From contig JAJFKR010000033.1 of the NCBI GenBank assembly GCA_021773095.1, positions 1 through 64,000 on the forward strand: 64,000 nucleotides of DNA, written 5' to 3'. Made by a program: the position numbers and the translations under genes. Positions 11,582 to 48,161 of the stretch are shown in pieces. Each line of letters starts with the position of its first letter. The stretch's first letter is position 1. Source of the stretch: Woeseiaceae bacterium (GTDB lineage: Bacteria > Pseudomonadota > Gammaproteobacteria > Steroidobacterales > Woeseiaceae). Under the pieces are notes generated by a model that saw nothing but the letters and a program-made list of their open reading frames with translations, did not search any database and was not told the DNA's origin.

Positions 11582-11658
11582 GGTGATGTAGCTCAGTTGG
11601 TTAGAGCGACGGACTCATAACCCGTAGGTCGGTGGTTCAAATCCACCCTTCACCACCA
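11582..11658 (+). tRNA. tRNA with CAT anticodon, probably elongator tRNA-Met
   Basis: GGTGATGTAGCTCAGTTGGTTAGAGC...CTCATAA...GGTGGTTCAAATCCACC...CTTCACCACCA; tRNA-Ile2(CAT) not fully excluded. Confidence 0.9.
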
Positions 11659-11660
11659 AA
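11634..11660 (+). repeat. att-like direct repeat copy 1 (tRNA 3' end)
   Basis: GGTTCAAATCCACCCTTCACCACCAAA. Confidence 0.85.
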
Positions 11661-11695
11661 CAAGAAAGGCCACCCCGTTGGGGCGGCCTTTCTTG
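11661..11695 (+). terminator. Terminator after tRNA-Met
   Basis: CAAGAAAGGCC(A)CCCC GTT GGGGCGGCCTTTCTTG hairpin. Confidence 0.85.
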
Positions 11696-11841
11696 TTTGT
11701 GGAAGGCCGGATTTGTTTTCCGAGGAGTGTTTGCTAGTCGACGCGGCATCCCCGAACCGGCAGCTCATCTTTTTTTTCTGACGGGTACCCTATAGGGAAT
11801 GATATTAGAGCAGCCTGTGGCTTCATCTCAAGTAGACACTC

Positions 11842-11868
11842 GGTTCAAATCCACCCTTCACCACCAAA
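11842..11868 (+). repeat. att-like direct repeat copy 2
   Basis: 27/27 identical to 11634-11660. Confidence 0.9.
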
Positions 11869-12183
11869 TGAAAAAAGCCTTGCGAATCAAATAGTTAGCG
11901 GGGTTTTTCGGTTGTGGACTACGGGATCGAACTGCGATTCCACATCGGCCTGAAAACGTTGCCCCAATCGGCCTGGATTCGTCCAAGAAAATACTACGAC
12001 CGCCGAAAGAGTCCATTGTCGTTCCGTGGCCCTGTTCGCCAAGTAATTGGATTGCGGTTGCAATTGACTGGCTAGCAAAAGTATTTGGGGGCACTTTTGG
12101 GGGCATCTAATCTGAATGTCTCGCCAGATGCCCCCAATCGATTTTCTTGCCTTTGCGGCGTGCTGAATAGCAGTTATCATATT

Positions 12184-12226
12184 ACCTATTAAATAGGTTG
12201 AATAGAACTATAAAATAGGTAGAATA
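12184..12226 (+). promoter_or_regulatory. Candidate operator of the wHTH/NTase pair
   Basis: Perfect palindrome ACCTATT-A-AATAGGT (12184-12198) and direct repeats AAATAGGTTGAATA / AAATAGGTAGAATA (12191, 12213; 22-bp spacing). Confidence 0.65.
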
Positions 12227-12253
12227 AAGTATTCTCACAAGGAGGATATTTCG

Positions 12254-12601
12254 GTGGCTACACAAGCAACTCTCGAAGCCCTTTTTGGCGGCCAGGCTGC
12301 CGCCAAAGTGTTGCTCTTCATACAGAACTATGAAGAGGGGTACGCGAGTGGGATTGCCAAAACGTTCGAGATGCCAGTCAGCGAAGTCCAAAAGCAGCTG
12401 CAAAAATTCGAGGAGGCGGGTGTGTTGGTTAGTCGGATGGTCGGCACCAGTCGAATCTACACCTGGAATCCACGCGACCCGGCCCTAGATGGTTTGCGAC
12501 TGTTGCTTCAGAGCACGTTGGACCTTGGAATTCCGGATGAAAGGATAGAGAAATATTTTCGACAGCGCCGGCGACCGCGGCGCAAAGGAAAGCCGCTCTA
12601 G
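12254..12601 (+). CDS. Winged-helix DNA-binding protein (putative antitoxin/regulator)
   Basis: MPVSEVQKQLQKFEEAGVLVSRMVGTSRIYTWNP; RBS aaggagg then GTG at 12254; stop adjacent to next start. Confidence 0.75.
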   Translation: MATQATLEALFGGQAAAKVLLFIQNYEEGYASGIAKTFEMPVSEVQKQLQKFEEAGVLVSRMVGTSRIYTWNPRDPALDGLRLLLQSTLDLGIPDERIEKYFRQRRRPRRKGKPL

Positions 12602-13165
12602 ATGCCAAACATCACTGCCAGTTCGACACTTGAAGACGTTGCAGCGATTGTTTCGAGCGCTCTGGATGACGCTGGAATCGCCGCAACATTGTCAGGTGGT
12701 GCAGCAGTATCGATCTATTCGAACAATGTGTATCAATCAAAAGATCTGGACTTCGTTACCGCAGCCTTAATTACCGATTTATCTCCGGTCCTGGTAGAGC
12801 TCGGCTTTGTTCACTCAGGCGTTCCCAGAATGTCGCAATTTTCTCACCCGCTCATCGAGTGGTTCGTGGAATTTCCACCAACCCCCATTTCGTTCGGCCA
12901 TCTGTACGTGACCCACGAGCAATGTGCCACGATCAAGCTACCATCTGGCACGCTGAGAATCGTTACACCGACGCAGTCGATTATGGATCGACTAGCGGCT
13001 GCCATCGCATGGAATGATGCCCAGTCGAGAGACCAGGCGATACTGGTCGCGGCGAATAATGAAATTGAATGGGCTGATCTGCGGGTGTGGTTCAAGAATG
13101 AAGGAGAGTCTGACGCAGAGTTCGAGCGATTTCGATCTGCGGTGAAGAAGGTAGCAGATAAATAG
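12602..13165 (+). CDS. Nucleotidyltransferase-fold protein (AbiEii/DUF6036-like, putative toxin)
   Basis: LSGGAAVSIYSNNVYQSKDLDFV (GG...DxD pattern), directly abutting the wHTH gene. Confidence 0.7.
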   Translation: MPNITASSTLEDVAAIVSSALDDAGIAATLSGGAAVSIYSNNVYQSKDLDFVTAALITDLSPVLVELGFVHSGVPRMSQFSHPLIEWFVEFPPTPISFGHLYVTHEQCATIKLPSGTLRIVTPTQSIMDRLAAAIAWNDAQSRDQAILVAANNEIEWADLRVWFKNEGESDAEFERFRSAVKKVADK

Positions 13166-13407
13166 CGTAGTACCGAACGCTGGGAGGGGCTAATAAGTTG
13201 CGCATTGAGTTCGAGCAATTGAGCTCAGAGGGCAGGAATATTAAACGTAAATCACGATGCGATATGGTGACCTGGATGCGCAAGCTGATACTTCCGATTT
13301 GGTCCGGAGAAAGCCGGATAACTTGGGGGCAACAGCGGGGGCACCAACTTGAATTGATCAGTGGAAATCACAACCAAATCAGAAAGATACAGTGTTCCTG
13401 ACGTAGT

Positions 13408-13422
13408 ACCCTTCACCACCAA
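13408..13422 (+). repeat. att-like direct repeat copy 3 (core)
   Basis: ACCCTTCACCACCAA identical core. Confidence 0.85.
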
Positions 13423-13432
13423 TTCACCGTCC

Positions 13433-13469
13433 AGAGCCGCCCAGAGAAATCCGGAGTGGCTCTTTTTTT
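13433..13469 (+). terminator. Terminator-like hairpin after att copy 3
   Basis: AGAGCC...GGCTCT followed by TTTTTT. Confidence 0.65.
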
Positions 13470-13669
13470 GACCTAAATACAGTGAGTTACGGGGAAACCC
13501 CGTCCAATGCTGTCCAGGTATATTCATTGACAGCGGGGGGCATTTTGAGGGCATGTCACGACAATCCTTGGGAGTGCTTCCAGCTCTTGCTAAGCTTGAT
13601 TCATCACTTGTTAAGTCAAGAATAATAAAATAAACTTGAATTAGTTATTAATAATTCAAGGTTGTCACT

Positions 13670-14938
13670 ATGAGAAGAGATGAGTTGGCCGGTAGCCTGC
13701 GTCAGCCATATACCCAGCAACGGGGCCTCGGAGTCGAGAAGATTGACAAATCCGGCTACGAAAACGTGTGGTTCGTCGTTCCTCCGAAGCCGCCTGTTGC
13801 TATTGTTGAAAAGCTGGACCTGGTGCTGGTTCGTGATGCAATCCAGGCTATCCAGACACGGACATCGTTGTCGACGGCTGACGAAATTCAGAAAACGCTG
13901 GCTTACCTCCTGGTCCGACGGGAAGCCGTATCGTCTTCGAGAATGGAGGGTACCTGGTCTACCGTGGACGAGGTTCTGTCGCCGGCCATCTCCAGCGCTG
14001 ATCGTTCCGCCACGGCGGCTGTTCGCGGCTACGCTAATGCGTTGGCCCATGGGGTCGAGGCTGTCCAAATCGCCGGATTGGTGGCGACCACGCCGGCATT
14101 ACTGTGCAAATTGCACACACATGTGATGCAAAAAGACCCCGGCTTTGCAGGAGTCGCTGGCAGACTGCGGACGCCGGGCCAGCCAGGAGCGATCGTTCAG
14201 ATTGGCAGCTTCGGTCGCAAAGAGGATTCGATCTATAACCCGGCACCTCCGCACCACGTGGCTCGCTGCCTCGATGCAGTTCTTGGCTGGATGTCGGACG
14301 AATCAGTGCTTGAGCCTGGTGATGCTGGCATGGGTTTGTCCTTACCTGTTCGTATGGCAGTCGGTCACGCCCACTTTGAGGCTGTACACCCATTTAACGA
14401 CGGCAATGGTCGTATTGGCAGGATTTTGTGGGCGCTGCAGATGGTCGCTGCCGGCAAGCTGCCTTTGTACCTGTCAAGCTACGTGGAGACAGAACGAGCT
14501 GAGTACGGCGAGGCATTACAAGAGGCACAAAAGAAACTTAAGTATCGCCGAATCATTGAATTCGTCTGCCGCTCGGTCATCGCCAGCAGCGCGGAAGAGG
14601 GCGAGACGCAGCAGGCACTTTGTGATCTGCCCGCGGAGTGGCTTCGCCGAGGGAAGTTCCGTCGAGGATCCTCGGCCGAGCGTGCGCTCACCTTGTTACT
14701 AAGAATGCCGCTTCTAACAATCAAAGCAATGGCGAACGAACTCGAGGTGTCAGTGCAGGCCGCAAGTGACGGAATTAGACGACTTGAAAAAGCTTGTGTT
14801 GTTCGCGACCGTAGTGGTCACGGGCGGCGTAGGGTATATGCTGCCGAAGAAGTAATCAGTGTTTTGGCGCGACCTTTCGGAGCGGACCTCGATGTGGTGT
14901 TGGAGGGTGCTCGGAGCGTTCTGACAAACTCAGGCTGA
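13670..14938 (+). CDS. Fic family protein (class II, N-terminal inhibitory motif)
   Basis: HPFNDGNGRIGRILWAL Fic core; SSSRMEGT inhibitory motif; C-terminal wHTH-like domain. Confidence 0.93.
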   Translation: MRRDELAGSLRQPYTQQRGLGVEKIDKSGYENVWFVVPPKPPVAIVEKLDLVLVRDAIQAIQTRTSLSTADEIQKTLAYLLVRREAVSSSRMEGTWSTVDEVLSPAISSADRSATAAVRGYANALAHGVEAVQIAGLVATTPALLCKLHTHVMQKDPGFAGVAGRLRTPGQPGAIVQIGSFGRKEDSIYNPAPPHHVARCLDAVLGWMSDESVLEPGDAGMGLSLPVRMAVGHAHFEAVHPFNDGNGRIGRILWALQMVAAGKLPLYLSSYVETERAEYGEALQEAQKKLKYRRIIEFVCRSVIASSAEEGETQQALCDLPAEWLRRGKFRRGSSAERALTLLLRMPLLTIKAMANELEVSVQAASDGIRRLEKACVVRDRSGHGRRRVYAAEEVISVLARPFGADLDVVLEGARSVLTNSG

Positions 14939-15217
14939 CGGATACGCGGCTGTTGCCATCACGCAGCGTCCTCTCAAGTTCTGACAAGGCTGTAACAGTA
15001 CTCATTGAAATGAGCGAATCACGCTGAAAACCGACGTAACTCAGGCCCTAATCTTCAATCAGCTCTCGCCAGATCTTGATGTTCGATTTGGAAAGAGTAA
15101 ATTCCGATAATGTCTGAAGACGACCGGAAATCATGGGGGAAAGTCTGGGGGCAATTGGGCAAACGGGTAAGCACTAAAGCTATATTAATCAATAATGTAT
15201 AGAGTTCATACGGTAGC

Positions 15218-15233
15218 ACCCTTCACCACCAAA
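15218..15233 (+). repeat. att-like direct repeat copy 4 (core)
   Basis: ACCCTTCACCACCAAA identical core. Confidence 0.85.
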
Positions 15234-15238
15234 CAGAG

Positions 15239-15268
15239 AAAAAGGAAGCCAATTGGCTTCCCTTTTTT
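15239..15268 (+). terminator. Terminator-like hairpin after att copy 4
   Basis: GGAAGCC AATT GGCTTCC with flanking A/T tracts. Confidence 0.85.
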
Positions 15269-15349
15269 ATGGCTAAAGTCCTTAGCAAATAAACAATGAC
15301 AATATACGAATCGCCCCCAGACGAAATCGAAACCGGTCCTTCTCGGCGG

Positions 15350-46355: not shown

Positions 46356-48161
46356 ATGAATCCCGTTATAGAAGAAGTGACGCTGCGCATTACCGAGCGC
46401 AGCAAAGACAGTCGCGCCGCCTATCTTGAGCGCATAACGGCGGCTGCGAATAAAGGTCCGGCGCGCGGAACACTATCCTGCAGCAACCTGGCGCATGGAT
46501 TTGCAGCTTGTGGTGCCGCTGACAAATCGGCGCTATCCGGCGATGTCGTACCCAATATTGCGATCGTGTCCGCGTACAACGACATGCTTAGTGCTCATCA
46601 GCCGTTTGAGGGCTACCCGGCAACGATTCGTGATGCGGCGGCCAAACACGGCGCGGTCGCACAATTTGCAGGTGGCGTGCCGGCAATGTGCGACGGGGTT
46701 ACGCAGGGGCAGGATGGTATGGACCTGTCATTGTTCAGTCGTGACGTGATCGCATTGTCGACGGCCATCGCCCTGTCTCACAACATGTTCGACGGCGTAT
46801 TGTGCCTGGGCGTTTGCGACAAGATCGTCCCCGGCCTCCTAATTGGCGCGTTGTCGTTCGGTCATTTGCCGGTCGTATTTGTGCCGGCCGGGCCGATGGT
46901 GTCCGGCCTGGGCAACAAGGAAAAGGCGCGTATTCGGGAAGAGTATGCGACAGGAAAGATCGGCCGTGATGAGTTACTCGCTGCGGAGTCGGCTGCCTAC
47001 CACTCGCCCGGAACCTGCACGTTTTATGGCACCGCAAACACGAATCAAATGCTTATGGAATTCGTCGGCCTGCAACTGCCGGGTGGCTCTTTCGTTAATC
47101 CAGGCACAGAGTTAAGAGATAAGCTGACCGCGGAAGCCGTTACTACGGTTCTCAACAAGACACATCTTGGCAATGACTACTTGCCACTGGCTAAAGTCAT
47201 TGACGAAAAAGCGATCGTGAACGGCATCGCTGGTCTTCTGGCAACGGGAGGCTCAACCAATCACACCATACACATCGTCGCTATTGCTGCCGCGGCTGGC
47301 ATCAGGATTGACTGGCAGGATTTCTCCGACTTGTCGGCCGTGATACCTCAGCTATCACGTGTGTATCCGAACGGGACTGCCGATGTGAATCACTTTCACG
47401 CAGCCGGAGGGCTCGGATTCATAATGTCCGATATGCTGGACAACGGATTGCTGCACGAAGACGTAAATACGATTCTCGGTTCCGGCCTACGACGATTTTG
47501 CCAGGAGCCGCATCTCGACAATGGCGATCTGGTTTGGAAAGGCACGCAAGAGCAGTCGCTGGACGACGACATAGTGCGGTCGTGCGCTGCGCCTTTTAAT
47601 AGTGAGGGTGGATTGCAGCTCGTTTCCGGTAACGTCGGTCGTGCGATGGTCAAAGTGTCCGCGGTGGACCTGCAGTACCAGGCGATCGAGGCGCCGGCAA
47701 AAGTATTCCGGTCACAACAGGCATTTGTTGATGCGTTTAACGACGGTGAGCTGGAACAGGATTTTGTCGCTGTATTGTCGTGCCAGGGGCCACGCGCGAA
47801 CGGCATGCCGGAACTGCACAAATTGACGCCGTATCTCGGTGTATTGCAAAACCGCGGGTTCAAGGTCGCGCTGGTAACGGATGGCCGCATGTCGGGCGCG
47901 TCCGGGAAGGTGCTCGCGGCGATACAGGTGTCGCCTGAGGCGACCTTCGGCGGCGTGATCGGAAAAATCCGCGATGGTGACATGATCACCGTCGATGCGA
48001 CGAGTGGCCTGTTGTCAGTCGCCGCCAGTGACGATATCGAGTTGCGAGAGGCCGTATTAGTTGAAGCACCGCAACAGGGTATGGGCCGTGAATTATTCGG
48101 TGTATTTCGTGAGCGGGCAGGGAGTGCCGAAGTCGGCGCCAGCCTGTTCACTGGAGCTTAG
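46356..48161 (+). CDS. edd: Phosphogluconate dehydratase
   Basis: [59 protein letters not shown]; start at ATG 46356. Confidence 0.98.

Follow-up and report, generated by a model that had tools for sequence, protein, structure and literature searches.

Two integrase-less islets at a tRNA-Met gene of a Woeseiaceae bacterium and their possible mobilisation by a P4-type integrase

Integrase-less islands are usually regarded as decayed elements. In the genome of a Woeseiaceae bacterium (GCA_021773095.1), copies of a tRNA-Met 3' end recur behind the tRNA gene itself, and a preliminary description of this locus read them as the boundaries of three tandem islets without an integrase. The question is whether such units are the remains of elements that once carried an integrase, or cassettes moved by an integrase encoded elsewhere. 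We analyzed the locus within a stretch of 64,000 nucleotides at the start of contig JAJFKR010000033.1, referred to here as the window, and compared it with related genomes, which are drafts and in many cases MAGs.

The tRNA-Met locus and its native site

The integration target is a tRNA-Met (CAT) gene on the + strand (11582..11658), identified with ARAGORN, and the first copy of the core ACCCTTCACCACCAA lies in its 3' end, at 11645-11659. Exact matches to this core occur at 11645, 11853, 13408 and 15218, and the bacterium's own 3.4-Mb assembly contains no others. When the window was shuffled and up to two mismatches were allowed, the core matched 0.10 times on average, and never four times. 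The second copy (att2, 11842..11868, + strand, 27 nt, with its core at 11853) forms the left boundary of islet B. The core search also placed att3 (13408..13422, + strand) between islets B and C, and att4 (15218..15232, + strand) at the right end of the pair. Thus the four tRNA-Met 3'-end copies reported earlier are real, and the 27/27 identity given for 11842-11868 is borne out by direct reading of the sequence.

The number of islets, on the other hand, falls from three to two. Four repeats bound three intervals, which favors counting the first of these, 'islet A' (11660..11841, no strand assigned), as an islet. Yet this interval contains neither cargo nor the arm sites described below, starts with a native-type tRNA terminator, and resembles what is seen in relatives that are unoccupied at this site. 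In G263 (locus L100), the order is tRNA, terminator, palindromic repeat, second tRNA 3'-end copy (with one base changed), a terminator termed T2, and a conserved gene. In G220 (L113), a tRNA 3'-end copy stands directly between a palindromic repeat and T2. A terminator similar to T2 of both genomes lies at 15233..15285 (+ strand) in the window, and from its last att copy onward the window shares 87% identity with the att copy plus T2 of G220 over 63 nt. Several relatives carry a second tRNA-end copy ∼0.17–0.24 kb downstream of the tRNA. As second tRNA end and spacer are already in place in unoccupied relatives, a third islet is hardly credible, and we regard 'A' as native chromosomal DNA. Because G263 and G220 have the tRNA-end copy and T2 with nothing in between, it follows that B and C were inserted exactly between att2 and T2. 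The look at relatives that had been suggested earlier hence yielded an empty site, in G220 and G263, as well as a B unit in another array, in G015 (see below).

In seven loci (L067, L068, L071, L086, L089, L100 and L113), the palindromic repeat precedes the second tRNA-Met 3'-end copy and is seemingly inserted in the T-loop. It is possible that this copy, with its repeat, represents a native decoy att site. To the right of T2 in the window, a block of 22 kb (15286-37717) separates this terminator from conserved genes starting at ∼37.7 kb. The 18.8–37.5 kb part of the block is 85–87% identical to a stretch inside the array interval of G317, and no att was found when sought at the right end of the block. 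Further downstream (46505-47103) lies a pair of short ORFs that overlap and match ORFs next to an integrase on contig C25 of the same genome; the pair is perhaps an insertion sequence.

Cargo and ends of islets B and C

Islet B (11853..13407, + strand, 1555 bp) has cores on both sides, a full set of arm sites and a counterpart in G015, and consists of a terminator, left arms, two genes and right arms. The first gene (12254..12601, + strand) is an ORF for a wHTH protein of 115 aa, with a weak match to the candidate defense family PDC-M05A (PADLOC E=4e-9). The second (12602..13165, + strand) is an ORF for a putative nucleotidyltransferase (NTase) of 187 aa. Of the wHTH/NTase pair described previously, the first member has this weak match, and the label of the second comes from a GG...DxD-like motif only. 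Searches of the 187 aa protein against Pfam and NCBIfam gave no match, and a single-sequence structure model (pLDDT 44) was unusable and set aside.

Islet C (13408..15217, + strand, 1810 bp) opens with ∼146 bp that share homology with autonomous elements at their integrase-promoter end, its first 127–146 bp being 75–82% identical to that end in L119, L104 and L103. Next comes a gene for a SoFic-like Fic protein of 422 aa (13670..14938, + strand; Fic_N + Fic), an earlier identification that proves solid, as PF02661, Fic_N and the SoFic model all match the ORF. Just before this gene, at 13640-13666, is an operator-like inverted repeat, CTTGAATT...AATTCAAG, and the Fic homologues of G031 and G005 have similar repeats in front of them. 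These homologues (68%) were considered as proof of movement of islet C and rejected, there being no att in the stretches seen.

PF00589 has matches elsewhere in the genome and none in the islet stretch, and tblastn with eight integrases detected no remnant in the islets. The latter search also gave matches in G317 and in islet B, which were discounted as read-through of arm DNA. The earlier statement that the islets are bounded by att and lack an integrase therefore holds for B and C, and the remnants in each islet that would have spoken against it were looked for and not found.

The preliminary description had overlooked GGGGGCA repeats just inside both islet ends. On the left of islet B (12087..12135, + strand), two copies at 12087 and 12099 and an inverted copy, TGCCCCC, at 12129 correspond to +234, +246 and +276 relative to the core. 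On the right (13325..13343, + strand), a pair is located at –83/–71 from att3, the same spacing as in a 15.4-kb element of G015 and others. Islet C has a degenerate set, with a single left arm at +128 (13536..13542, + strand) and right arms GGGGGAA at –83 and GGGGGCA at –71 (15135..15153, + strand). In the bacterium's own genome, the pair GGGGGCA-N1-14-GGGGGCA occurs twice, and these are the two ends of B. With the spacing fixed at exactly 12 nt, 73 genomes of the genus contain the pair 20 times, in all cases (20/20) at att boundaries, element ends or integrase promoters, compared to one match for the reversed motif. A match on contig C76 of G014 is a further boundary, with a one-base change in the core. 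Scanning 85,462 species genomes for the right-end pattern returned nine stretches, all from records titled Woeseiaceae, Gammaproteobacteria or Proteobacteria MAGs.

Elements that do carry an integrase share this target. In G070, G232, G016, G308 and G223, autonomous elements at tRNA-Met with GGGGGCA arms have a tyrosine integrase directly after the left arms, with the domains Arm-DNA-bind_3, Phage_int_M and Phage_integrase, the P4-type make-up. Hence the P4-type integrase using the same att, for which a search had been proposed, exists in relatives and goes together with the same arms. Arm sequence tracks the integrase clade: GGGGGCA is found with the helper-type clade, even at ssrA in G001, and GGGGTA-like arms go with the integrase clade of G010 and G139. 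The left arms of B and L119 of G070 have 25 identical nt in common. No integrase-bearing element with the left-end family of B was found among relatives. In L119 (1733-1828), the integrase start is also immediately preceded by five repeats of the inverted arm TGCCCCC with a period of 12 nt.

A similar arrangement is seen in Stenotrophomonas phage S1 (NC_011589), whose integrase is 53% identical. Its arms are at –83, –71, +129, +141 and, inverted, +170, with the integrase match starting at +178. As in the islets, the right arms of this attP stand at exactly –83/–71 and are followed by a terminator and left arms. The left-arm spacing is near that of the integrase-bearing elements and islet C, whereas the left arms of B lie ∼105 nt further out. 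Unlike the islets, the phage encodes an integrase beyond its left arms; its arms are GGGGTA, and its core is a different one.

These observations suggest that B and C are probably non-autonomous integrative elements, CIME-like cassettes moved by a helper P4-type integrase. The ends of islet B, taken together, would form a P4-type attP comprising right arms, a core equal to the tRNA-Met 3' end, a replacement terminator and left arms, and those of islet C would be a degenerate version of it, with cargo where the integrase gene would otherwise be. A P4-type integrase of the GGGGGCA clade, supplied by another tRNA-Met element, would bind the cassette arms. Recombination at the core would then insert or excise cassettes one after another, producing tandem arrays, and the terminator in islet B would take over from the one displaced. 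We infer that an integrase of this clade recombines the cassettes, and mobilization may occur in trans; accretion in cis beside an integrase-bearing element is also compatible with the data.

Arrays in relatives

The longest array is found in G015 (Woeseiaceae MAG OFTM327), where eight att copies delimit seven elements of about 15.4, 22.5, 13.0, 18.5, 9.4, 5.5 and 1.3 kb, or about 86 kb in all. This array spans three contigs, whose joins are inferred from two features that cross them, an ABC-transporter operon and a unit like islet B. Further att boundaries of integrase-less arrays occur in G317 and G014. No match to PF00589 was found in the array stretches of G015, G317 and G014, even though G015 has 21 elsewhere. 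The G015 cargo includes functions for peptide uptake and amino-acid catabolism (read by eye), TonB receptors and an M81 peptidase; nitrite reductase, a molybdopterin oxidoreductase and an MFS protein for nitrate assimilation; and an aldehyde dehydrogenase with a glutamine-synthetase-like enzyme. The earlier characterization of the cargo as single toxin/defense-like modules thus applies at most to B and C, as the wider family carries mostly catabolic operons in units of up to tens of kb.

Despite this unrelated cargo, the last 130 bp before att are 83–92% identical across five G015 elements. The same ends are 67–76% identical to that of islet B and 42–49% identical to those of integrase-bearing elements, and two other right ends in G015 are degenerate. 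Left ends cluster by genome less clearly than right ends. One unit in G015 is a counterpart of islet B, with equal boundaries and 75–77% nucleotide identity. In fact, two B-like copies are present there, 97% identical to each other and both starting at att, at separate att sites. Copy 1 is cut short within the 187 aa gene and abuts the nitrate genes; copy 2 has lost its left arms. These two copies could have arisen through homologous recombination between repeated ends.

An alternative is that the units are relics, that is, integrase-bearing elements whose integrase was lost in place and which have since become fixed and vertically inherited, so that their order records old insertions. Several results are in line with this. 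The arms are degenerate in C and at several G015 ends, and the left end of C appears to derive from integrase-bearing ends. Helper-type integrases (at least 67% identity to that of G070) are encoded by 4 of the 73 genomes, G070 included, and the search of these 73 genomes found none of the GGGGGCA clade in the array-bearing G000 (the window's own genome), G015 or G014. For this reason, there is no evidence of present mobility in the strain studied here. Moreover, the divergence of islet B between G000 and G015 is comparable to that of core genes, so B may itself be inherited, although its neighbors differ. Against decay in place, no islet holds an integrase remnant, arm pairs are intact in islet B, in element e6 of G015 and in element e3 of G317, two B-like units that are 97% identical occupy two att sites, and right ends are alike despite different cargo. 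On balance, we consider the relic scenario unlikely.

A second alternative involves no site-specific recombination at all: homologous recombination between the repeated tRNA ends and end modules would have rearranged the locus. The ends do constitute repeated DNA within an array, and an 85.7-kb interval of G317 contains a block that, in the window, is flanking DNA. This interval was not counted as a cassette, because it holds the block colinear with the 18.8–37.5 kb flank. However, rearrangement predicts neither arm sites at the fixed spacing of a phage attP nor precise core boundaries with an empty site in relatives, and is very improbable.

A broader version of the cassette interpretation, in which the arrays make up a large-scale integron-like system built on a P4-type integrase, is put forward tentatively, at well under even odds. 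Operon-sized units with a genome-specific attP end module would be moved singly by a transient helper and pile up at tRNA-Met, forming a reserve of catabolic and defense-like modules.

Relation to known systems and meaning for Woeseiaceae

Cis-mobilizable elements (CIMEs) and tandem accretion have been reviewed (PMC5704250). CIMEs have att at both ends, lack integration and transfer genes, and can stand in tandem at one target (PMC5704250). B and C share these features, with cores at both ends and ORFs for the wHTH, NTase-like and Fic proteins only. Unlike CIMEs, the units here have right ends that are shared within a genome by unrelated cargo, and up to seven of them line up in arrays that lack an integrase.

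The ssrA islands of Dehalococcoides resemble the arrays in being tandem behind one RNA gene, about half of them without an integration module, and in their catabolic cargo and a conserved motif beside each repeat (PMC3146451). Those islands involve a serine recombinase and a tmRNA target, as opposed to a tyrosine P4-type integrase and tRNA-Met, and the arrays consequently do not belong with them. The microcin H47 island of E. coli is also integrase-less, and its excision and integration with the help of functions located elsewhere have been demonstrated; extensive imperfect direct repeats are a feature of its own (PMC3191183). Tycheposons are likewise tRNA-bounded units with nutrient-related cargo, and tRNA-Met is among their targets, but they contain a tyrosine recombinase (PMC10872708), which the islets lack, and the islets are accordingly not tycheposons.

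Autonomous P4-type integrative elements and IMEs have their own integrase gene, whereas neither the islets nor the arrays contain a PF00589 match. Nor are these integron cassette arrays, which have IntI beside them: none of the arrays contains an integrase, and the cores are tRNA-Met 3' ends. Set against the open-licence literature, the combination of attP geometry on integrase-less units, multi-unit arrays with operon cargo, and right ends alike within each genome appears to be new.

With intact arms at fixed spacing, an independent phage attP for comparison, helper-type integrases and arrays of up to seven units with different operons, one can test whether genes actually travel by way of non-autonomous cassettes. 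Such units can be found by their attP geometry rather than by an enzyme. If cassettes of this kind do move, searches based on integrases miss many mobile catabolic modules, and their traffic could help explain variation in gene content among the Woeseiaceae.
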